A stretch of 40,147 bases of DNA, taken from an uncultured Eubacteriales bacterium (GTDB lineage Bacteria > Bacillota > Clostridia > Lachnospirales > CAG-274). The first letter of the stretch is position 1; every line of letters begins with the position of its first letter. Made by a program: the position numbers and the translations under genes. The stretch covers positions 1 through 40,147 of the forward strand of contig CATJCJ010000614.1 in assembly GCA_949738935.1 (NCBI GenBank), written 5' to 3'. Positions 5,041 to 19,156 of the stretch are shown here, piece by piece. The notes below the pieces were generated by a model. It was given only the letters and a program-made list of their open reading frames with translations, made no database searches and was not told the origin of the DNA.

Positions 5041-6921
5041 ATGTGCGTAAGGGGGGGGGCTTTAATTGGTCTCATAGACGTAGACGGTCACAACTACCCG
5101 AACTTATGTCTCATGAAACTCTCTGCCTATCACAAGTCTATCGGAGATCATGTCGAATGGCATAACCCCGACAGCGAACAGCAATACGACATAGTGTATA
5201 TGTCGAAAGTGTTCAGCGAAGCGTACTCCCCGGACGTTCCCGAACCCACAAATGCCGCTCGTGTAATCAAAGGCGGCACAGGCTACGCAATCAAGCTCGA
5301 AGACGGAAAAGAGGTTTACCACAAGGAATTAGACCCTCCTCTCCCGGCAGAGATCGAAAGCATATACCCCGATTACAGTCTTTACCCGGAATATACAGGG
5401 TACGGACTACCGCTGAAAAAGCAAACCGCATACGGTTTTCTCAGTCGAGGTTGTCCGAGAGGTTGTGAGTTCTGTCATGTGGCGGCAAAGGAAGGTCGGT
5501 GCGCTTACAAAGTTGCTGATTTATCTCAGTTTTGGAACGGTCAAGGCACGATCTGTCTGAGTGACCCCAACATTCTCGCTTGCCCCGGAGCGGTTGATCT
5601 GCTTACACAGTTGAAAGAGTCCGGCGCAAAGGTCGAGTTCAATCAAGGCTTGGACGCAAGGCTCATTACACCGCAGAAAGCAGAGCTGTTGGCGAGTATG
5701 AAGTTGAAAGTACCTCACTTCGCAATGGATACGATGAAGTCTCTCGAACCAGTGAAGAAGGGTGTCAAGCTCTATGTGGACGCTTACAAGCGGAAGCATG
5801 GGAAATGGGATTGGAGGAATGCAAAAGTCTTCTGTCTCACGAACTTCGATACGACCCATGAACAGGATATGCAACGAATAAGGGCAATCCAAGAGTGCGA
5901 GTGCCAACCGTATGTAATGATTTACAACAAGCCCTCTGCTCCTCCTATCACCCGGAGATTACAGAGGTGGACGAACAGCACAATGCTGTATGCCAAAACC
6001 CAAGACTTCAATGAGTATCAGCGTATGAACTACAAAACAGTTTTGGAAGGAAGTGGTGAAAAGAAAATGCGATTGATTGTTTATGACTGCGAGGTGTTCT
6101 GCGAGGACTGGCTTGTGATCTTCAAGGACATTGAGACAGGTCAGTACACAGTTATTCACAACGACACCGAAGAAATGAAGCAGTGTATCTCCGAAGACTG
6201 TATCTATGTAGGTTTCAACTCGAAGCACTACGACCAGTTCATTATCAAGGCGATATGCTGTGGGTTCACTCCACAGGAAGTGAAACAGGTCAATGACTTC
6301 ATTATTGGCGGCGGTCAAGGTTGGGAGTGTCCTATGCTCCGAGACCAGTACTTCCGTTTCAACAATGTAGACATTAAAGACGATATGCAGATGGGCTTGT
6401 CCCTCAAGGCAATCGAAGGGCATTTGGGTATGTCCGTAGAGGAAACCTCCGTATCGTTCGACATTGACCGTCCTCTGACTGAGGAAGAACTGAAAGAAAC
6501 GGTGTTCTACTGTAAGCACGATGTTGACACAACGGAAAAGCTCGTAGAGCTTCGCCGGGACTATCTGAAATCCAAAATCAACATCGGTAGGCTCGCCGGG
6601 ATTGATGAAGTCAAGGCAATGGGTATGACAAATGCCAAACTGACTGCGGCTCTCCTTCAAGGTACGAAGAAACCGCACGATGATGAACGGCAGTACCAGT
6701 ACCCTCCGAACCTCAAGCGTGATCTGATTCCGCCGGAAGTGTTCGAGTTCTTTGACCGAATGAGAAACCCGGAACTGAGCGATAAGGAGATATTCTCCTC
6801 CAAGATCGAGATTATGATTGGTGATTGTCCTGTGACTATCGGTTATGGCGGCATTCACGGTGCTATCCCGAATTATATGTGGAAGGAGGAATGTGACCCA
6901 TGCGTAAGCGAAAGAGAATAA
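5041..6921 (+). CDS. In-frame fusion: radical-SAM domain protein (N-terminal half) + family-B DNA polymerase 3'-5' exonuclease portion (C-terminal half)
   Basis: IGLIDVDGHNYPNLCLMKLSAYH and CPRGCEFC (CX3CX2C) in the first half; MRLIVYDCEVF...YVGFNSKHYDQFI...HDVDTTEKL exonuclease-like motifs from ~6067; ends just before polymerase motif A. Confidence 0.8.
   Translation: MCVRGGALIGLIDVDGHNYPNLCLMKLSAYHKSIGDHVEWHNPDSEQQYDIVYMSKVFSEAYSPDVPEPTNAARVIKGGTGYAIKLEDGKEVYHKELDPPLPAEIESIYPDYSLYPEYTGYGLPLKKQTAYGFLSRGCPRGCEFCHVAAKEGRCAYKVADLSQFWNGQGTICLSDPNILACPGAVDLLTQLKESGAKVEFNQGLDARLITPQKAELLASMKLKVPHFAMDTMKSLEPVKKGVKLYVDAYKRKHGKWDWRNAKVFCLTNFDTTHEQDMQRIRAIQECECQPYVMIYNKPSAPPITRRLQRWTNSTMLYAKTQDFNEYQRMNYKTVLEGSGEKKMRLIVYDCEVFCEDWLVIFKDIETGQYTVIHNDTEEMKQCISEDCIYVGFNSKHYDQFIIKAICCGFTPQEVKQVNDFIIGGGQGWECPMLRDQYFRFNNVDIKDDMQMGLSLKAIEGHLGMSVEETSVSFDIDRPLTEEELKETVFYCKHDVDTTEKLVELRRDYLKSKINIGRLAGIDEVKAMGMTNAKLTAALLQGTKKPHDDERQYQYPPNLKRDLIPPEVFEFFDRMRNPELSDKEIFSSKIEIMIGDCPVTIGYGGIHGAIPNYMWKEECDPCVSERE
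5051..5059 (+). repeat. Poly-G tract (G9) at codons 4-7 of the radical-SAM ORF
   Basis: atgtgcgtaaGGGGGGGGGctttaattggtctc. Confidence 0.95.
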
Positions 6922-8597
6922 TCCGAAATTTTGACGTAGCGAGTTACTATCCTCACCTCATGACGATCTGTGGGTACACCTCTCGAAACATTCCGTCCCC
7001 GGAGGTATTTGAAAACGTACTCGAACAGCGTATGAAAGCAAAAGCCGCCGGAGACAAGGCTACAGCAAACGCTCTCAAGCTGGTTGTGAACACGACCTAC
7101 GGAGCAATGCTGAATCAGTACAACGACCTGTTTGACCCTCTCATGGGACGCTCGGTATGTATCACAGGTCAGTTGTTCCTCTTGGAGCTGGCACAGAACC
7201 TTTATCAGAACATAGAGGATTTGGTAATCGTCCAGCTCAACACCGATGGTGTCATGCTTGAGTTCTACGAAGATCAGTACGATGAAGTGCTGGCAATCGT
7301 GAACGAATGGCAGTCCCGGACAGGCTTTGAGCTTGAGGAAGACTCCGTGGCTCTGATCGCACAGAAGGACGTGAACAACTACGTTGAGGTTCAGCCGAAT
7401 GGGTCTGTGAAGACCAAAGGCGGCTACTTGGTTCGTGGTATCGCCCCGGCTGGTGCGTTCAATATCAACAACAATGCCTGTATCGTAGCAACAGCTCTCA
7501 AGGAGTATTTCGTGAACGGTACTCCTGTGGAGGAAACCATAAATGGGTGCAACGATATTTTCCAGTTCCAGCTTATTGCAAAAGCCGGGGCGAAGTATCG
7601 TGAAGCCTATCACCTTGTCGATGGTGAGCAAGTCCCGGTACAGAAGGTAAACCGTGTCTATGCCACAAAGGACGAACGGTACGGAAAGCTGTTCAAGGTT
7701 AAGGCTGAGAATGACGCTACCGCCAAGATCGAAATGCTCCCGGAACACTGCATTATCGACAACGACAACCAACTTAGCATTGACGATGTGGATAAGACCT
7801 TCTACATCGAAATGGCAAAGAAACGAATCAATGATTTTTTGGGTGTAAAGCCCGAAAAGAAACCAAGAGGAGGACGAAAAAAGATGGCTACTACAGCTAA
7901 AGAAACCAAAATCACAAACCTCAATGTATATCAGAAGTTGCTCAAGGCGAGGGCTATGTTCCTTGAGTCTGATGTGCAGAAGACAGGTAAGAATATGCAC
8001 CTGTCATTCAAGTACTTCGAGCTGGATGATATTGTCCCTACCGCAACTCGAATTTTCAGCGAGGTCGGTCTGATTCCTGTTGTGAACTTCACTTCCGACA
8101 TTGCAACCATGACCGTAGTCAACACCGACAACCCCGAAGAAGTCATTCCTTTTGTAGCTCCGTTCAATCAGATCGCTCCTATCGTGAGCAATGCTGGTAA
8201 ACAGGCTACCAACGAAATGCAAGCCCTCGGTTCTTCCATCACCTATATGCGCCGCTACCTGTACATGATCGCACTGGATATTTGCGAGAGTGACAGCTTT
8301 GACGCAAATGTCGGAAAGCCTGTTGCCGCACCTCAGACCGCTCCTACCCCTCCGGCTACTCCCGAACAGAGACAGGAAGTGAAACAGGAGTTGACTGCTC
8401 CCGAAGATAACGCAACCGCTTTGCAGATCAAGGGTCTGAAAAACGTGTTGAAGAAGCTCAAGGACGCTGACCCTTCCAAGGAAGAAATGATCGCTCAGAT
8501 TGCGGTTCAGACACAGGGCTTTACCGTTATCAGCAAGTCCGACTGTGAGACTCTTATCACTCGTATCACCGCTATGCTGGAAGGAGGAAATGAGTAA
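6900..8597 (+). CDS. In-frame fusion: family-B DNA polymerase palm/catalytic portion + ERF-family ssDNA annealing protein
   Basis: Motif A FDVASYYPHLM, motif B KLVVNTTYGAM, motif C LNTDGVML; ERF domain from MATTAKETKITNL (~7884) with NLNVYQKLLKARAMF...GSSITYMRRYLYMIALDI. Confidence 0.85.
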   Translation: MRKRKRIIRNFDVASYYPHLMTICGYTSRNIPSPEVFENVLEQRMKAKAAGDKATANALKLVVNTTYGAMLNQYNDLFDPLMGRSVCITGQLFLLELAQNLYQNIEDLVIVQLNTDGVMLEFYEDQYDEVLAIVNEWQSRTGFELEEDSVALIAQKDVNNYVEVQPNGSVKTKGGYLVRGIAPAGAFNINNNACIVATALKEYFVNGTPVEETINGCNDIFQFQLIAKAGAKYREAYHLVDGEQVPVQKVNRVYATKDERYGKLFKVKAENDATAKIEMLPEHCIIDNDNQLSIDDVDKTFYIEMAKKRINDFLGVKPEKKPRGGRKKMATTAKETKITNLNVYQKLLKARAMFLESDVQKTGKNMHLSFKYFELDDIVPTATRIFSEVGLIPVVNFTSDIATMTVVNTDNPEEVIPFVAPFNQIAPIVSNAGKQATNEMQALGSSITYMRRYLYMIALDICESDSFDANVGKPVAAPQTAPTPPATPEQRQEVKQELTAPEDNATALQIKGLKNVLKKLKDADPSKEEMIAQIAVQTQGFTVISKSDCETLITRITAMLEGGNE

Positions 8598-11833: not shown

Positions 11834-12175
11834 ATGAACAGAGCTGAAAGACGGAGAAGACAGAAACAGGGACTTCCCATTGTCAAAGAACCTGTGCTGA
11901 ATATCAAGGCGAGCGATATTCAGCAGATCAAAAAGGACGCTACCCACACTGCCGCCGACACAGCTTTTTTCCTCATGCTGGCTATCCCGGTCATGGTGAT
12001 TCATGACAAATATCCGCAGATCATGAGGAGAGTCGTGGACGGTAAATCGAGGGAGGAACGCTTCGCTGACCTCTGTCTCGACCTGTACGACAGTTTCAAC
12101 AAAGGGTATGTGACCCTTGATGATTTGGCTCAGTGTCTTTGGGAAGAAGCTGGTATCAAACTCGAAAAGAAATAA
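11834..12175 (+). CDS. Hypothetical phage protein
   Basis: MNRAERRRRQKQGLPIVKEPVLNI...; complete ORF in operon. Confidence 0.65.
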   Translation: MNRAERRRRQKQGLPIVKEPVLNIKASDIQQIKKDATHTAADTAFFLMLAIPVMVIHDKYPQIMRRVVDGKSREERFADLCLDLYDSFNKGYVTLDDLAQCLWEEAGIKLEKK

Positions 12176-12188
12176 GGAGGTACAATCC

Positions 12189-12419
12189 ATGAACTATAAG
12201 CTCAAGAACGTGAACGGTAAGGTCACTTTTCTGCTCCGCACTGGCAAGGATTTGGTGAAAAATCAGATGGCTATTGCTTCGGCACAGCACATTATCGACC
12301 ACGGCAAGATCAAGAAGTCCGATGTGAAGGGCTACCCTATCAACGTGGACGATAAGTGGTATTTCGAGGGTGAGGTCTACAAGAAGACCGCTCCTCAGAA
12401 GACGGAGGGAGAAGCCTAA
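12189..12419 (+). CDS. Small hypothetical phage protein
   Basis: MNYKLKNVNGKVTFLLRTGKDLVKNQ..., RBS AAGGAGG. Confidence 0.6.
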   Translation: MNYKLKNVNGKVTFLLRTGKDLVKNQMAIASAQHIIDHGKIKKSDVKGYPINVDDKWYFEGEVYKKTAPQKTEGEA

Positions 12420-12712
12420 TGAGAACTTTCTATTCCGAATATGTACAGCACTGCATGAGATTTTATGCGAGACACCCTCGCCCTAAGTTCCGCAGTGACG
12501 CAGACAAGCAGAACTGGAACGCTTGTGACAGTGCTATGAAGGGTTTCACCGATAAGGAACAGGACATTCTCATGACTGTCTACCGTGAAGGTGACACCAT
12601 TCCCGACAATGTATATAAGGTGTCTGTTGATCGCAACATCAAACAGGACACCATTTGGAAGCTCATTAACGAGCTGGAACGCAAGGTTGCAAAGAGGAGG
12701 AACTTGATTTGA
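12419..12712 (+). CDS. Small HTH / sigma-like phage protein
   Basis: C-terminal SVDRNIKQDTIWKLINELERKVAKRRNLI resembles a sigma-like region-4 HTH. Confidence 0.5.
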   Translation: MRTFYSEYVQHCMRFYARHPRPKFRSDADKQNWNACDSAMKGFTDKEQDILMTVYREGDTIPDNVYKVSVDRNIKQDTIWKLINELERKVAKRRNLI

Positions 12713-13497
12713 CACACTACGAGAACATACCCGGCGAACTGAAAGAGTTGAATCAATGGGTCTGTACTCGTAGTGACAGCAAAGTTCCGATGAAAGCGTT
12801 CGAGAATGAAGCCGCTTCCTCCACCAACCCTCAGACGTGGGCTACCTTCGACATGGCGAATGACGCTGTGTCGAAGGGGTTCTATGACTACTGCGGCTTT
12901 GTCTTTGCTGACAACGGTTTTGTCGGCATTGACATTGACACCGGGTATGACGAGGAAGGTTTCATGACACCGCTTGCCGCAGACATTATCGGCAAGTGTG
13001 CGAGCTACACGGAGAAATCCAAAAGCGGCAGAGGTTTTCACATTCTCCTCAGAGGTACGCTTCCCTTCAAGGGCAAGAACAACCTCGCCGGAGTTGAGAT
13101 ATACAAGTCCGCCCGGTACTTCATCATGACAGGCGATACGCTCCTCTATCGTAATATCGAGGAGAACCAAGAAGCGATTGATTATGTGGTGGAAAAATAC
13201 TTCCCGGAGACACGGCAAGAGAAAGAGACCTCCGAGTACGGTGGTCGAATCTACTCCCCGATATGGGAACTGCCGGAGAACAATCGTATCAAGCTCCGCC
13301 CTGTCTACCCTCGAATCCCGGACGGAAGCCGTAATATCTGTCTGACCTCTCTCGCTGGTATGCTTCACAATCAAGGGTACAGCAAACAGCAGATATACGA
13401 TGAACTTATTTACTGTAACACGGTTGCCTGTGAACCTCCGCTCGACAGGAACGAGCTGAGAACGATCTGCAACAGTGTTACCCGGTACAAACGATGA
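12709..13497 (+). CDS. Bifunctional primase/polymerase-type (prim-pol, PriCT-like) primase
   Basis: FADNGFVGIDIDTGY ... SGRGFHILLRG ... VEIYKSARYFIMTGD. Confidence 0.8.
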   Translation: MTHYENIPGELKELNQWVCTRSDSKVPMKAFENEAASSTNPQTWATFDMANDAVSKGFYDYCGFVFADNGFVGIDIDTGYDEEGFMTPLAADIIGKCASYTEKSKSGRGFHILLRGTLPFKGKNNLAGVEIYKSARYFIMTGDTLLYRNIEENQEAIDYVVEKYFPETRQEKETSEYGGRIYSPIWELPENNRIKLRPVYPRIPDGSRNICLTSLAGMLHNQGYSKQQIYDELIYCNTVACEPPLDRNELRTICNSVTRYKR

Positions 13498-13715
13498 TTG
13501 AACTCACACCACTACAGAATCTAAGCAACGCAATTATCTTGCAAGCGGTCAAGGACTACCGTACCGCCCTCGGTGGTAGCGGCATAGGCAAGAGACCGCC
13601 GGGAAGCGTCATTGTCGAGGTCGAGCGGTTCTTCCGCTCCGAGTGGTTCGACATACTGACCGATGTTGACGGTGAAGTTCTGATCGAGAAAATCCGCAAG
13701 GAATTTGCAAGATAA
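13494..13715 (+). CDS. Small conserved phage protein
   Basis: MIELTPLQNLSNAIILQAVKDYRTALGGSGIGKRPPGSVIVEVERFFRSEWFDILTDVDGEVLIEKIRKEF. Confidence 0.65.
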   Translation: MIELTPLQNLSNAIILQAVKDYRTALGGSGIGKRPPGSVIVEVERFFRSEWFDILTDVDGEVLIEKIRKEFAR

Positions 13716-13754
13716 AAACTAACACAAAAAGGATAAAAAGTTGCAGAAAAAGTA

Positions 13755-13783
13755 TTGACAAGTAATCTTATTTGTGTTATATT
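13755..13783 (+). promoter_or_regulatory. Promoter TTGACA-N17-TATATT (alternative -10 TATAAT at 13783)
   Basis: Intergenic, directly upstream of the DUF6273-like gene. Confidence 0.7.
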
Positions 13784-13839
13784 ATAATCACAACAGGACA
13801 AGAAACAATCTTGTTCAGATTATTAAGGAGGACAGACCT

Positions 13840-14409
13840 ATGATGGTTAAGAGAAGTGAAATGGTGGAGACCACCAACTACAACGTAGAGGACATTATCT
13901 CCTTCGAGCTGGCTGACGGTGAGAAGGTAGAAGCAATGGCTATGAAACAGGAAGCAGACGGTATGATCTTCATGCTGGTGGACTGCTTGAAGGACGAGGA
14001 GTGCATGAACGAGGAAGACTCCAACCGTGGCGGCTGGGACGCAAGCGATTTGCGTGTGAAGCTGAATGGTGAAATTCTCGAACGCTTCCCGGCTGAAATC
14101 CGTGAGCAGATGGTCGCATTCGCCAACGGCGATATGCTGAGACTGCCTACCGAGAAGGAAATCTTCGGTGTCAATGAGTACGGCGAGACTGAGGACGAAT
14201 CCGTTGAGCAGTTCGCTCCTATGAAGCTCCGCAGAAACCGTATCGCATTCCAAGGTCACAACGGTAATTGGGAATGGTACTGGCTGGCAAACAAGCATAA
14301 GCGTTCCGCTTCCTATTTCGCCCTTGTCGCCTCCTCCGGTAGTGCGGGCTGCAACAGCGCTTCCGACGCTCGCGGTGTCCGCCCCGCTTTCAAAATCAAG
14401 AATCTGTAA
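13840..14409 (+). CDS. DUF6273-like protein with C-terminal RGVRP motif
   Basis: WEWYWLANKHKRSASYFALVASSGSAGCNSASDARGVRPAFKIKNL. Confidence 0.7.
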   Translation: MMVKRSEMVETTNYNVEDIISFELADGEKVEAMAMKQEADGMIFMLVDCLKDEECMNEEDSNRGGWDASDLRVKLNGEILERFPAEIREQMVAFANGDMLRLPTEKEIFGVNEYGETEDESVEQFAPMKLRRNRIAFQGHNGNWEWYWLANKHKRSASYFALVASSGSAGCNSASDARGVRPAFKIKNL

Positions 14410-14411
14410 TC

Positions 14412-14432
14412 TGCGCCCCCTTGTGGGGCGCA
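14412..14432 (+). terminator. Strong hairpin (TGCGCCCC-cttgt-GGGGCGCA) without U-tract; possible terminator or processing element
   Basis: 8-bp perfect stem in the intergenic region. Confidence 0.5.
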
Positions 14433-14460
14433 CTCAACCCACACGAAGGAGGATATAATC

Positions 14461-14982
14461 GTGGCTTACTATATGAATAACAACAGAGACATTGAGTGCT
14501 ACAGAGGTGACATTTTCTATATCGCCAACAGCGGTCATGTGGTCGGCTCTGAGCAGAGATCGGGAAGACCCGGTATCATCGTCTCGAATGATTTGGCGAA
14601 CAAGCACTCACCCAACGTGTCAGTCGTATATCTGACTTCACAGGAGAAGAAACCTCTGCCGACTCACGTTGATGTGATCTGCAAAGTCCCTTCTACTGCT
14701 CTGTGCGAGAACATTCAGACCGTATCGAAGGAACGTCTCGGTGACTTCGTGAAGTCCTGTACTACCTCCGAAATGGAAAGAGTCGATAAGGCTATCTGTC
14801 ATGCCCTCGGTCTCACCGTTCCGGCGGAAGAACCTACTATCACAGAGGAAGATTTGAAAGCTCTCAAGGAAGCACCTGTTCAGCTCATGCCTGTCGAACC
14901 TACGGCGGCTGAGATTGAGCGTAACCTGTACAAGAACCTGTACGAGCAGTTGCTTGACCGACTGACAGGTAAGTCCGCATGA
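14461..14982 (+). CDS. PemK/MazF-family toxin-like protein
   Basis: RGDIFYIANSGHVVGSEQRSGRPGIIVSND...VVYLTSQEKKPLPTHVDV...ALCENIQTVSKERLGDFV. Confidence 0.8.
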   Translation: MAYYMNNNRDIECYRGDIFYIANSGHVVGSEQRSGRPGIIVSNDLANKHSPNVSVVYLTSQEKKPLPTHVDVICKVPSTALCENIQTVSKERLGDFVKSCTTSEMERVDKAICHALGLTVPAEEPTITEEDLKALKEAPVQLMPVEPTAAEIERNLYKNLYEQLLDRLTGKSA

Positions 14983-15152
14983 GAGATTCAGTAAAATGTA
15001 GTTCGTGCCGGAAGCGGTGTCTCTGCCGCTCCTGTCCGAACAATCAGACGTGCAAGATCGCCCTCCGGCGATATTGTAAGGCAGTCTGTTATTGCAGTAT
15101 CAATAGAAAACTCAAGGAGAACGAGAATGAACACAGACGTAATGTTCAGTAG
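14979..15152 (+). CDS. 57-aa cysteine-rich small protein (9 Cys), probable metal-binding
   Basis: MRDSVKCSSCRKRCLCRSCPNNQTCKIALRRYCKAVCYCSINRKLKENENEHRRNVQ; overlaps the start of the N6A MTase; below ORF-track size cutoff. Confidence 0.5.
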   Translation: MRDSVKCSSCRKRCLCRSCPNNQTCKIALRRYCKAVCYCSINRKLKENENEHRRNVQ

Positions 15153-15596
15153 CAAAACGGACGATTGGGCTACTCCACAAGACTTCTTCGATGAACTGAA
15201 CCGGGAGTTCGGTTTCACCCTTGACCCTTGTGCAGATCATGTCAATCACAAGTGCGCTACTTACTATACGAAAGAACAAGACGGTCTCGTTCATGATTGG
15301 GGGGGGAACGAGTATTTTGTAACCCTCCCTATGGGAAAGAGATTGCCAAGTGGGTTCAGAAATCTCTTGAGGAGAGTCGCAAGCCCAATACCCTTGTCGT
15401 AATGCTCATTCCGGCGAGAACCGATACAAGATACTTCCACGACTTTATTTACGGAAAAGCGGAAATCAGATTCTTTCGAGGACGATTGAAGTTCGGCAAC
15501 TCGAAAACCGCCGCTCCCTTCCCTTCTATGGTCGTAATATTCAAAAACAAGGAGGAAAAATCCCATGAAAGTAACACTCATACAAGCAACCCCTAA
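15127..15596 (+). CDS. Phage DNA N6-adenine methyltransferase (Dam/PF05869-like), reading frame broken at a G8 tract
   Basis: MNTDVMFSSKTDDWATPQDFFDELNREFGFTLDPCADHVNHKC...LVHDWGG in frame 1, ERVFCNPPYGKEIAKWVQK...LIPARTDTRYFHDFIYGKAEIRFFRGRLKF in frame 3. Confidence 0.85.
15299..15306 (+). repeat. Poly-G tract (G8) at the N6A methyltransferase frameshift
   Basis: catgattGGGGGGGGaacgag. Confidence 0.95.
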
Positions 15597-16167
15597 CCCC
15601 ATTGAGACTATCGCTCAGATCGCAAGTATCTGTTACGACAGTGACCCCAAGAATCCTATCGGACTGGTGAAGCACCTGTACCGCAACGGACACCACAGTG
15701 TCTTCGAGCATATCTACTTCACGTTCAAGATCGAGGGTATCTCTCGTGCTTGCTCTCACCAGCTTGTGAGACACCGCCACTGTAGCTTCACTCAGCGCAG
15801 TCAGCGTTATTGCTCTGAGGACGGTTTCGGCTTTGTGACTCCTTCCACCGTTGATGAAGGACGCTTCGCAAACGATATGGAGGACATTAAGGACTGGTAC
15901 GAGGAGTATCAGAACAGCGGTGTTCCCAACGAAGACGCACGATATGTTCTGCCGAATGCGTGTGAAACCTCTCTCTACCTCTCCTGTAATCTGAGAGAAC
16001 TCATTCACATGAGCAACGAGCGTTTGTGCCGTAAGGCTCAGTGGGAAATTCGAGAGCTGGTACAGCAGATGGTCTACTGTGTGAACGCTGACCTGTGGTT
16101 CATGCTCGTACCTAAGTGCAAGAGCGGCAGAATCATTTGTAATTCCCCTTGCGGTAAGGAGGATTAA
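15565..16167 (+). CDS. thyX: FAD-dependent thymidylate synthase
   Basis: ThyX signature RHRHCSFTQRSQRY. Confidence 0.93.
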   Translation: MKVTLIQATPNPIETIAQIASICYDSDPKNPIGLVKHLYRNGHHSVFEHIYFTFKIEGISRACSHQLVRHRHCSFTQRSQRYCSEDGFGFVTPSTVDEGRFANDMEDIKDWYEEYQNSGVPNEDARYVLPNACETSLYLSCNLRELIHMSNERLCRKAQWEIRELVQQMVYCVNADLWFMLVPKCKSGRIICNSPCGKED

Positions 16168-16170
16168 GTC

Positions 16171-16494
16171 GTGAAGGTCAACATTCTCGGTGTTCCCTAC
16201 ACCATCCAATATAAGTCCCCGGCGGAGGACAAATTCTTGCGAGAGTGTGACGGTTACTGTGACAAAAGCTCTCACAAGATCGTAGTCAATACCGAGAATG
16301 GAGACCTTGAAGATTTCCCTCGGTATCAGAAACAATGTTTGCGGCATGAGATTATCCATGCGTTTATGTTCGAGTCCGGCTTGGGCGCAAATTGGGAACA
16401 TAAACCCATCGGACATGAGGAGACAACTATTGACTGGATAGCCGCTCAGTTCCCAAAGCTCCTCGAAGTATTTGAGAAAGTAGGTGCTTTGTGA
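16171..16494 (+). CDS. Zinc metallopeptidase-like phage protein (HExxH)
   Basis: RHEIIHAFMFESGLG; GTG start. Confidence 0.65.
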   Translation: MKVNILGVPYTIQYKSPAEDKFLRECDGYCDKSSHKIVVNTENGDLEDFPRYQKQCLRHEIIHAFMFESGLGANWEHKPIGHEETTIDWIAAQFPKLLEVFEKVGAL

Positions 16495-16670
16495 TGAACG
16501 AAATTATCTGCCCTCTCCTCACTACCAACACGGTAGTTGAGGAAGACGGAACAGTCAAAATAGGTACTCAGCCTGTGTACTGCATTGAATGTCAGTGTGC
16601 ATGGTGGGTCGAAGATAAACAGAAATGTGCGGTAGCGGCGATTGGAGGTGAGCGTCATGGTAAGCGATAG
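16494..16670 (+). CDS. 58-aa hypothetical protein
   Basis: MNEIICPLLTTNTVVEEDGTVKIGTQPVYCIECQCAWWVEDKQKCAVAAIGGERHGKR; fills the gap between neighbours with ATGA-type coupling. Confidence 0.5.
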   Translation: MNEIICPLLTTNTVVEEDGTVKIGTQPVYCIECQCAWWVEDKQKCAVAAIGGERHGKR

Positions 16671-18180
16671 AGAATTGTTCGAGCTTCGTAATGGTCGAGT
16701 AATCATGGACGAAGACCTCTCCGAGAAAATGTACATCATCAAGGAGTACCACCCGGAGAGAGCGGACGAGACCAGCTCCGGCTTTGAATGGTCGGAAATG
16801 GGTATGGCTAACCTGTTCGGTATGCTCTACAACAGAGAGGTTCGCTACTGTACCGAGCATAAGAGCTGGTACACCTACCATGAAGGTGCGTGGCGCAAGG
16901 ACGAGGGTGCAATCCTCGTGTCCGAGAAGATCAAGGACTTTGTTCGTCTCATGATTCTCTACTGCGGTGAGATTGTGGACGATGATCTCCGCAAGAGCTA
17001 CACTGCATTCGTCAATAAGATGGGTGACAGACGTATGCGAGACCGAATCCTCAAGGACGCTACAGGTGAGCTTCGTATCTCCGCTGTGGAGTTTGACGCT
17101 AACCCCTACCTCATTAACTGTCTGAATGGTACATACTCTCTCGAAGACTTCTCCTTCCGGGAAGCTCGCTGGGACGATTTTCTCACCATGCAGACCAACT
17201 TCCGACACACTATCCGTAGAGACATTAAGTGTAAGCGTTGGGAGAAGTTCATTGACGAGGTTACACAGGGAGATAAGGACAAGGCGGATTTCCTTCAACG
17301 TGCGCTCGGTTACTCCATGCTCGGCATGAGCAACGAGGAGTGTATGTTCATTCTCCACGGCAAGACTACCCGAAACGGCAAGTCCACTCTGCTCAACACC
17401 ATCGAATTTATGCTCGGTGACTATGCGAAGGTTGCCCCGGTAGGTATGATCTGCCGTGGAGACAGGCAGAAGGACGCAGAAGCCGCTTCTCCTACTCTTG
17501 CCGGACTCAAGGGCAAACGCTTCGTCACCATGTCTGAGTCGAACGAGTATGGCAAGCTGGACGAGGAGAAAATCAAACAGCTCACAGGCGGTGAGGAAAT
17601 CTCAGCTCGTGCGCTGTACCAGTCAGCAATTACCTACAAGCCGCAGTTCACCCTTTGGCTTTCCTGTAATGACCTTCCGATGGTTACGGACAAGTCTCTG
17701 TTCGCTTCCGAGCGTATCAAGGTTATCGAGTTCAATCGTCACTTCACCCCTGAGGAACAGGACACTCACCTCAAGGACGAGCTGACCTCACAGGAAGCAA
17801 TGAGCGGTATCTTCATGTGGCTGGTGCGTGGCTACATCAAGTACAAGGAAATGGGACTGAAAATGTCCGACTCCCTCAAGACTGTTGTCACCAAGTACGA
17901 GAGAGACAATGACCTTGTGTTGCAGTTCCTCGAAAGCCGCTGTGTGCGTGTTCCCGAAGGCGAGAGCAATCCATACGGTGAGAAGAACAAGCGCACTCTC
18001 ATTAAGGCGAAGGATTTGTACAACGCTTTCAAGCTGTGGGCGAAGTCAGAGGGTGCTTACGTCCTCTCTGCTCGAAAGTTCAACTCCGAAATGGAACGTC
18101 ACCCGGAATGGTTCGATAGAAAATCGACTTCCAGCGGTTTCATGATTTATTGGGGACTCAAGCTCAAGGAGGTGCTGTAG
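16657..18180 (+). CDS. D5/P4-type primase-helicase (SF3 helicase)
   Basis: Walker A HGKTTRNGKSTLLNT, SF3 motif C-like LWLSCNDLPMVTDKSLFASERIKVIEF; RBS GGAGGTGAG. Confidence 0.88.
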   Translation: MVSDRELFELRNGRVIMDEDLSEKMYIIKEYHPERADETSSGFEWSEMGMANLFGMLYNREVRYCTEHKSWYTYHEGAWRKDEGAILVSEKIKDFVRLMILYCGEIVDDDLRKSYTAFVNKMGDRRMRDRILKDATGELRISAVEFDANPYLINCLNGTYSLEDFSFREARWDDFLTMQTNFRHTIRRDIKCKRWEKFIDEVTQGDKDKADFLQRALGYSMLGMSNEECMFILHGKTTRNGKSTLLNTIEFMLGDYAKVAPVGMICRGDRQKDAEAASPTLAGLKGKRFVTMSESNEYGKLDEEKIKQLTGGEEISARALYQSAITYKPQFTLWLSCNDLPMVTDKSLFASERIKVIEFNRHFTPEEQDTHLKDELTSQEAMSGIFMWLVRGYIKYKEMGLKMSDSLKTVVTKYERDNDLVLQFLESRCVRVPEGESNPYGEKNKRTLIKAKDLYNAFKLWAKSEGAYVLSARKFNSEMERHPEWFDRKSTSSGFMIYWGLKLKEVL

Positions 18181-18181
18181 C

Positions 18182-19156
18182 ATGAAATTACCTTTCATTA
18201 ACACCAAACCTGTGCGATTGATTGAACTTTTCGGGGGTATCGGCTCACAAGCTATGGCTCTCACTCGATTGAGAGTTGACTTTGAGCATTATCGACTTGT
18301 CGAGTTCGATAAGTACCCAGTCAAAAGCTACAATGCTATTCATGGTACTGATTTTGAACCTACGGACATAACTCAAATCCACGGTTCGGATTTAGGTATC
18401 GTAGACACAGACCATTACTGCTACCTCATGACCTACTCTTTTCCGTGCCAAGACTTGTCTCTCGCTGGTAAACAGCAAGGCATGAGCAAAGGTGGTGGAA
18501 CAAGATCGGGATTGCTATGGGAAGTAGAACGACTGTTGAACGAAACCGAAAACCTACCTCAACTACTCCTCATGGAAAATGTACCACAAGTACACGGTAC
18601 TAAGAACCTTGCGGATTTTGAGGAATGGATTAAGTTTCTCGAAAACAAAGGTTACTCCAACTTTTATCAAGACCTCAACGCGAAGGACTTTGGTGTGGCT
18701 CAGAATCGTAACCGCTGTTTCATGGTGAGCATTCTCGGTGACTACTGCTTTTACTTTCCTACTCCTCGGAAGCTGAATAAGGTGATGAAGGATTATCTCG
18801 AAGACTCCGTTGACGAAAAGTATTATATCAATAGTGATAAGTCTCAAGCACTAATTGATAAGCTGTTGGCAGACGCTCAGTTCAGAGAGAGAGAGAGAGA
18901 GCGTGCGTTGATCTCTCCCTTAACCATCCTCAGAGAAGGGAAATCGCAAACTGCATTTCCGCAAGAACAGACCGAGGAATTAGCAACAGAAAATCGGAAG
19001 GAACCGGAGTTGTCGAATATGATTACCGCCGCTCTGAATTATCGGAGAATTGATAAGGTGGGACTTCCTGTAGTAAAGACACTTTGTGCGAGAGATTACA
19101 AAGGGTTCGGGACAGGGTTCGACACGATGAATGGAGTGATAGAATGGAAACCGTGA
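18182..19156 (+). CDS. C5-cytosine DNA methyltransferase, N-terminal part (motifs I-VIII)
   Basis: LIELFGGIGSQAMAL, SFPCQDLSLAG, LLMENVPQV, QNRNRCFMVSILG. Confidence 0.9.
   Translation: MKLPFINTKPVRLIELFGGIGSQAMALTRLRVDFEHYRLVEFDKYPVKSYNAIHGTDFEPTDITQIHGSDLGIVDTDHYCYLMTYSFPCQDLSLAGKQQGMSKGGGTRSGLLWEVERLLNETENLPQLLLMENVPQVHGTKNLADFEEWIKFLENKGYSNFYQDLNAKDFGVAQNRNRCFMVSILGDYCFYFPTPRKLNKVMKDYLEDSVDEKYYINSDKSQALIDKLLADAQFRERERERALISPLTILREGKSQTAFPQEQTEELATENRKEPELSNMITAALNYRRIDKVGLPVVKTLCARDYKGFGTGFDTMNGVIEWKP
18884..18901 (+). repeat. (AG)9 dinucleotide repeat inside the C5 methyltransferase
   Basis: gttcAGAGAGAGAGAGAGAGAGcgtgcg, encoding RERERER. Confidence 0.95.

Follow-up and report, generated by a model that had tools for sequence, protein, structure and literature searches.

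A phage-borne Dam-type methyltransferase gene split at a poly-G tract, a probable contingency locus with relatives in phages and prophages

In a tailed phage, eight consecutive G divide a gene between two reading frames; this gene very probably encodes an orphan Dam-type (GATC) N6-adenine methyltransferase that is phase-variable by a slipped-strand mechanism. More than 100 related phages and prophages, mostly from the gut, have the same switch. The window, by which is meant the whole 40,147-bp stretch of DNA analysed, has a tailed-phage gene set with helicase, DNA polymerase, Erf- and RecE-like recombination, primase, terminase, portal, head, and tape-measure genes, and the contig reads as a tailed phage. 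Coordinates of the features are given in Table 1.

The preliminary description placed the break of the methyltransferase at the run of eight G, and this was borne out. The tract lies in the context GATT-GGGGGGGG-AACGAGTATTTTGTAACCCTCCC. In the frame of the ATG at 15127, the product MNTDVMFSS...LVHDWGG comprises 60 true residues, the G run itself coding for Gly-Gly. The upstream half had been described as ending at WGG, which holds for its true residues but not for the open reading frame, as this continues with 31 out-of-frame codons to a stop at 15400-15402. The downstream frame reads ...GGERVFCNPPYGKEIAKW... up to 15596; it resumes with Glu-Arg-Val-Phe-Cys-Asn-Pro-Pro-Tyr and contains the catalytic NPPY motif of family PF05869 (Dam). 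Each half matches this family, with 54.8 and 50.4 bits separately and 111.5 bits when joined (cut-off 28.1), and the two therefore represent one gene in two frames. The NCBIfam equivalog TIGR01712 (phage_N6A_met) gave 92.5 bits, just under its cut-off of 97.05, and no solved structure of a relative was found by sequence. As assembled, the window copy is OFF.

Table 1. Position of the split methyltransferase gene, its parts and neighbours, and a further poly-G tract in the window
Feature	Position	Strand	Remark
Second poly-G tract, G9, in frame	5051..5059	+	Radical-SAM ORF 5041-6921
PemK/MazF-like protein	14461..14982	+	PF02452; upstream neighbour, in the same putative cargo block
Phage N6-adenine DNA methyltransferase (PF05869 Dam)	15127..15596	+	Two frames, OFF as assembled
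OFF-state ORF, 91 aa, without catalytic motif	15127..15402	+	Frame of ATG 15127
Downstream frame, rest of enzyme to stop	15297..15596	+	PF05869, 50.4 bits alone
G8 tract, probable contingency site, TGG GGG GGG = Trp-Gly-Gly	15299..15306	+	Homologous tracts G7-G11
Catalytic motif IV, NPPY	15321..15332	+	5 codons past the tract
ThyX thymidylate synthase	15565..16167	+	PF02511, TIGR02170; downstream neighbour

The 5' end of the ThyX gene overlaps the 3' end of the methyltransferase gene, and no cognate endonuclease is present among the immediate neighbours (PemK/MazF-like and ThyX). Genes for DUF6273, the PemK/MazF-like protein, the methylase, and ThyX form a 3-kb block flanked by primase parts at 12709-13497 and 16642-18180, which looks like a cargo site. 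The methyltransferase is considered cargo because the records behind L196, L199, and L206 are without the gene. A second DNA methyltransferase gene (phrog_116) at 18182-19156 has no G tract. The DNA polymerase is split over overlapping ORFs at 5041-6921 and 6900-8597, the former also holding a radical-SAM domain and the latter an Erf-like domain. An indel error at 6900-6921 was considered for this split and rejected, as relative L197 has the same one; the split is thus no sign of a poor contig. A search of GenBank for a phage near-identical to window positions 12000-18000 found none, and neither did a comparison with 47 further genomes from this family.

The + strand of the window holds two runs of at least eight G (G9 at 5051-5059 and G8 at 15299-15306), where a second-order Markov model of that strand predicts 0.017. 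Runs of six or seven G are missing from the window, and so are C runs of six or more. In the methyltransferase homologues, GGG represents 19% of Gly codons outside the tract site, and the expected share of GGG GGG at Gly-Gly sites is about 3.6%. In a frame-neutral IMG/VR scan with the pattern Trp-Gly...Val-Phe-Cys-Asn-Pro-Pro, at least seven G were present at the site in 72 of 102 distinct genes (71%) among the matches listed. Had all homologues a fixed, non-repetitive sequence at this site, the reading in the preliminary description would have been refuted; in this subgroup that is not the case. The locus has a long mononucleotide tract within the reading frame and beyond chance, as is characteristic of contingency loci.

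The census of homologues, composed of the IMG/VR scan and a scan of GTDB genomes, gave at least 165 verified copies, at least 153 of them distinct; the GTDB scan demanded seven or more G, and shorter tracts were invisible to it. Homologous WGG codons with G7 to G11 were present in at least 122 distinct copies from both scans, 48 in frame and 74 out of frame. Homologues with G4-5 were in frame in 26 cases and out of frame in one, and the phase differed between the two tract classes (48/74 versus 26/1, Fisher p=1.5e-8), both among the matches listed. Where G8 is the needed length, G7, G8, G9, and G10 were counted 26, 24, 27, and 1 times, respectively, among the matches listed, and the phase is close to uniform. 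The two OFF phases were equally common (38:36 among the matches listed). On the ML tree, ON/OFF state changed 37 times, close to the 37.6 obtained on average by shuffling (range 31-44). Having a long tract was clustered, with 17 changes versus 28.4 when shuffled; the tract is thus inherited, and the phase is not. Contigs carrying the gene were assigned to Bacillota, Bacteroidota, Pseudomonadota, and Spirochaetota. Many assemblies have out-of-frame tracts, some of them from isolates and one a chromosome titled complete genome (L150). Among cultured strains, Sporofaciens musculi WCA-9-b2 (L181) and Clostridium zeae CSC2 (L193) carry OFF copies, and Flintibacter muris DSM 110149 (L184) an ON copy.

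Eleven near-identical contig pairs differ at the methyltransferase tract, and in 11 of 11 a gap is located there. L122 (G9, ON) and L123 (G8, OFF) have no substitution and one gap over 7,885 bp, and L043 and L044 differ at the tract with no substitution over 2,648 bp. L188 (G11) and L190 (G10), with no substitution over 5,870 bp, share an 80-kb contig, separated by about 42 kb, and within-sample variation is possible for this pair. In that contig (JAFUSH010000052.1), a phage of about 42 kb was apparently assembled almost twice. Further pairs differing at the tract are L080/L142, L103/L181, L146/L194, and others; two or three of the few remaining gaps in near-identical pairs are also at poly-G runs. 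Length polymorphism between otherwise identical genomes, the other mark of a contingency locus, was thus found at homologous loci; for the window phage, we infer switching. The phase-variable reading in the preliminary description is well supported by G7-G11 tracts in all three phases and by near-identical phages differing at the tract. The median dN/dS is 0.110 for OFF-OFF pairs and 0.118 for ON-ON pairs, and the downstream halves are of about equal length in OFF and ON copies. These values indicate that purifying selection acts on OFF copies, which are not dead, and they fit genes that are often turned ON again.

The window protein is 69% identical to Phi93_04 (M.Phi93DAM) over 140 aa. M.Phi93DAM methylates GATC, by which DpnII is blocked and DpnI sensitivity is gained (PMC4190342), and the specificity of the window methyltransferase is probably GATC as well. 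The window contains 109 GATC sites versus 142 expected. Avoidance is seen for GGCC (0 observed, 60 expected), CTAG (0 and 44), and CGCG (2 and 100). Fragment L218 (the contig of L197) is syntenic with the window and has 86% and 83% DNA identity to it in two blocks (11.2 kb); it avoids GGCC, CTAG, and CGCG, as does the window. The aligned part contains no GATC in L218 and 37 in the window, the difference mostly being a single base change, e.g., to GATT. GATC is likewise zero in fragment L219 (the contig of L203), and the methyltransferase gene is absent from both fragments. The 37 sites of the window versus none in L218 suggest that the gene has been functional in the window lineage. This is most naturally read as GATC restriction by the hosts of this lineage, lifted when the methylase was gained, though the sampled copy is OFF. 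The median observed/expected GATC ratio in methyltransferase carriers from IMG/VR is 0.85, in ON and OFF copies alike, and GATC is zero in 7 of 16 polymerase relatives (Fisher p=1.2e-5 versus carriers, with non-independent contigs). G048 and G050, relatives of about 40 kb without the methyltransferase gene, have near-normal GATC counts, so that avoidance seems to be host-dependent and not universal.

M.Phi93DAM and the orphan Dam methylases of lactococcal 936-type phages (PF05869) are phage-borne and have NPPY, like the window gene, but are without a G tract: the homologous site of Phi10.5 is TGGGGCAATGAA, and M.Phi93DAM reads DWGNEVVF. No phase variation has been reported for them, unlike the window family. 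PamA, a Dam-like orphan adenine methyltransferase of an S. aureus prophage that marks GATC (PMC12435837), resembles the window enzyme, by its description, as a small Dam-like phage orphan with NPPY; no tract or phase variation is reported for PamA, in contrast to the window gene. The type IIG enzyme Cj0031c of Campylobacter jejuni has poly-G in its ORF and is switched ON and OFF by slippage (PMC4889913). It shares the tract within the ORF of a DNA-methylating enzyme with the window gene, but is a chromosomal host restriction-modification gene attacking phage, whereas the window gene is a stand-alone methylase on a phage. Phase-variable type III mod genes (phasevarions) occur in Haemophilus, Neisseria, and Moraxella (see also PMC6902483). 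They have random ON/OFF switching of an N6-adenine methyltransferase in common with the window gene, and differ from it in being host-borne, of type III, and with other repeat units.

The G9 tract at 5051-5059 begins 10 bases past the start of the radical-SAM ATG, and loss of one base from it leads to a stop two codons past the tract; it is a candidate second contingency site. The tract is absent from radical-SAM homologues L196 and L199, relative L218 is without the segment 5029-6065, and no poly-G just before the radical-SAM IDVDGH start was found in the IMG/VR scan. Further runs on the gene strand of carrier contigs were 81 of at least seven G versus 5 of at least seven C, when 27.8 and 13.2, respectively, were expected. 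Twenty tract-bearing representatives were picked by eye, so that family shares are a guide only: 10 of the 20 genes match DNA methyltransferase families (3 C5, 1 D12, and 6 N6/N4), and 3 match PAPS reductase. Many other poly-G runs, in different genes but again at recurring positions, were seen at L026, L047, L062, L067, L075, L140, L184, and others, and some of them vary in length between relatives. At L149:3355, L003:5067, and L157:2418, G7-10 is located at the position of the ribosome-binding site before ATG, GATTAG(n)AGAATATG, with a shorter version of this run at L183; the length of such a run might tune translation and not frame. It is rather probable that many phages of the gut have a poly-G 'phasome' of several genes, mainly for DNA modification, in which Dam, D12, N6/N4, and C5 methyltransferases and PAPS-reductase-like proteins each have their own G7-G11 switch, giving virions with combinatorial DNA marks that would escape both DpnII- and DpnI-kind restriction.

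In the mechanism proposed here for the methyltransferase, one G would be gained or lost during replication of the phage or prophage, shifting the frame at the Trp-Gly-Gly codons before NPPY. An ON copy would give the whole enzyme and an OFF copy a fragment of about 90 aa without the catalytic motif, although slippage during transcription or translation may let OFF copies make some product. Phage DNA from the ON state would be GATC-methylated, with DpnII-like restriction blocked and exposure to DpnI-like enzymes; that from the OFF state would be unmethylated, safe from DpnI-like methyl-dependent restriction and open to DpnII-like enzymes. A phage population may keep both marked and unmarked DNA, as bet-hedging against different host defences, and a prophage copy could also switch host gene expression.

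The split could also be a sequencing or assembly error, with a true tract in frame and the enzyme always made. Homopolymers are error-prone, the draft assembly behind the window contig has 885 contigs and 8.6% contamination, and some of the tract-length calls may be homopolymer assembly errors. Such an error is nonetheless very unlikely: tracts are out of frame in 74 of 122 distinct homologues among the matches listed and both frames occur in many independent assemblies, while short-tract homologues are in frame, coding A/T runs of at least eight in the same loci are in frame in eight cases and out in one, and pairs identical over thousands of bases differ at the tract alone. Error also leaves unexplained the upkeep of a G tract where chance codon choice would give 3.6%. 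Programmed -1 ribosomal frameshifting, raised together with assembly error in the preliminary description, or transcriptional slippage on the G run could instead give full enzyme in a set ratio. G GGG GGG could act as a slippery sequence, a -1 slip at the G8 of the window would restore the right frame, and poly-G slippage could leak some product. Programmed sites, however, hold a fixed slippery sequence and one frame relation constant in homologues, while here tracts range from 7 to 11 and all phases, ON included, occur in near-equal numbers; near-identical genes switch between ON and OFF, and the OFF class that -1 slippage would rescue is not favoured (36 versus 38, p=0.91, among the matches listed). 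The presence of all phases and the equality of both OFF phases argue against programmed frameshifting, which is most unlikely.

That the window copy is a decaying pseudogene with an incidental G tract is extremely improbable. As assembled it cannot yield the enzyme, but each half is open apart from the break and resembles the family, dN/dS of OFF copies as a class is 0.11, and GATC sites, plentiful in the window phage, are missing from its relative where the two align. A possible, though rather unlikely, alternative accepts phase variation as real and sees its main role in host expression in lysogens, i.e., a phage-borne phasevarion, and not in evasion of restriction. Several methyltransferase copies are situated in long bacterial contigs and are therefore probably prophages, and the prophage-encoded PamA alters host gene expression (PMC12435837). 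Against such a main role, the GATC footprint lies on phage DNA, which suggests that the phage genome is what is protected, and the remaining poly-G genes of carrier phages often serve DNA modification as well.

Methylating enzymes switched by poly-G are already established in Campylobacter (PMC4889913) and other bacteria. A description of phage-borne phase-variable methyltransferases of the Dam/PF05869 class was not found in the open-access literature, and prior art is possible. Bacteria are known to make their DNA methylation phase-variable, in part as a defence against phages, and in the present case phages seem to do so themselves. It becomes testable whether a phage population uses its DNA marks to hedge against both methyl-blocked and methyl-dependent restriction. 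Annotation will label about 60% of such genes as frameshifted or as pseudogenes, and a methylome or host-range result obtained with one phage isolate may fail for its siblings.
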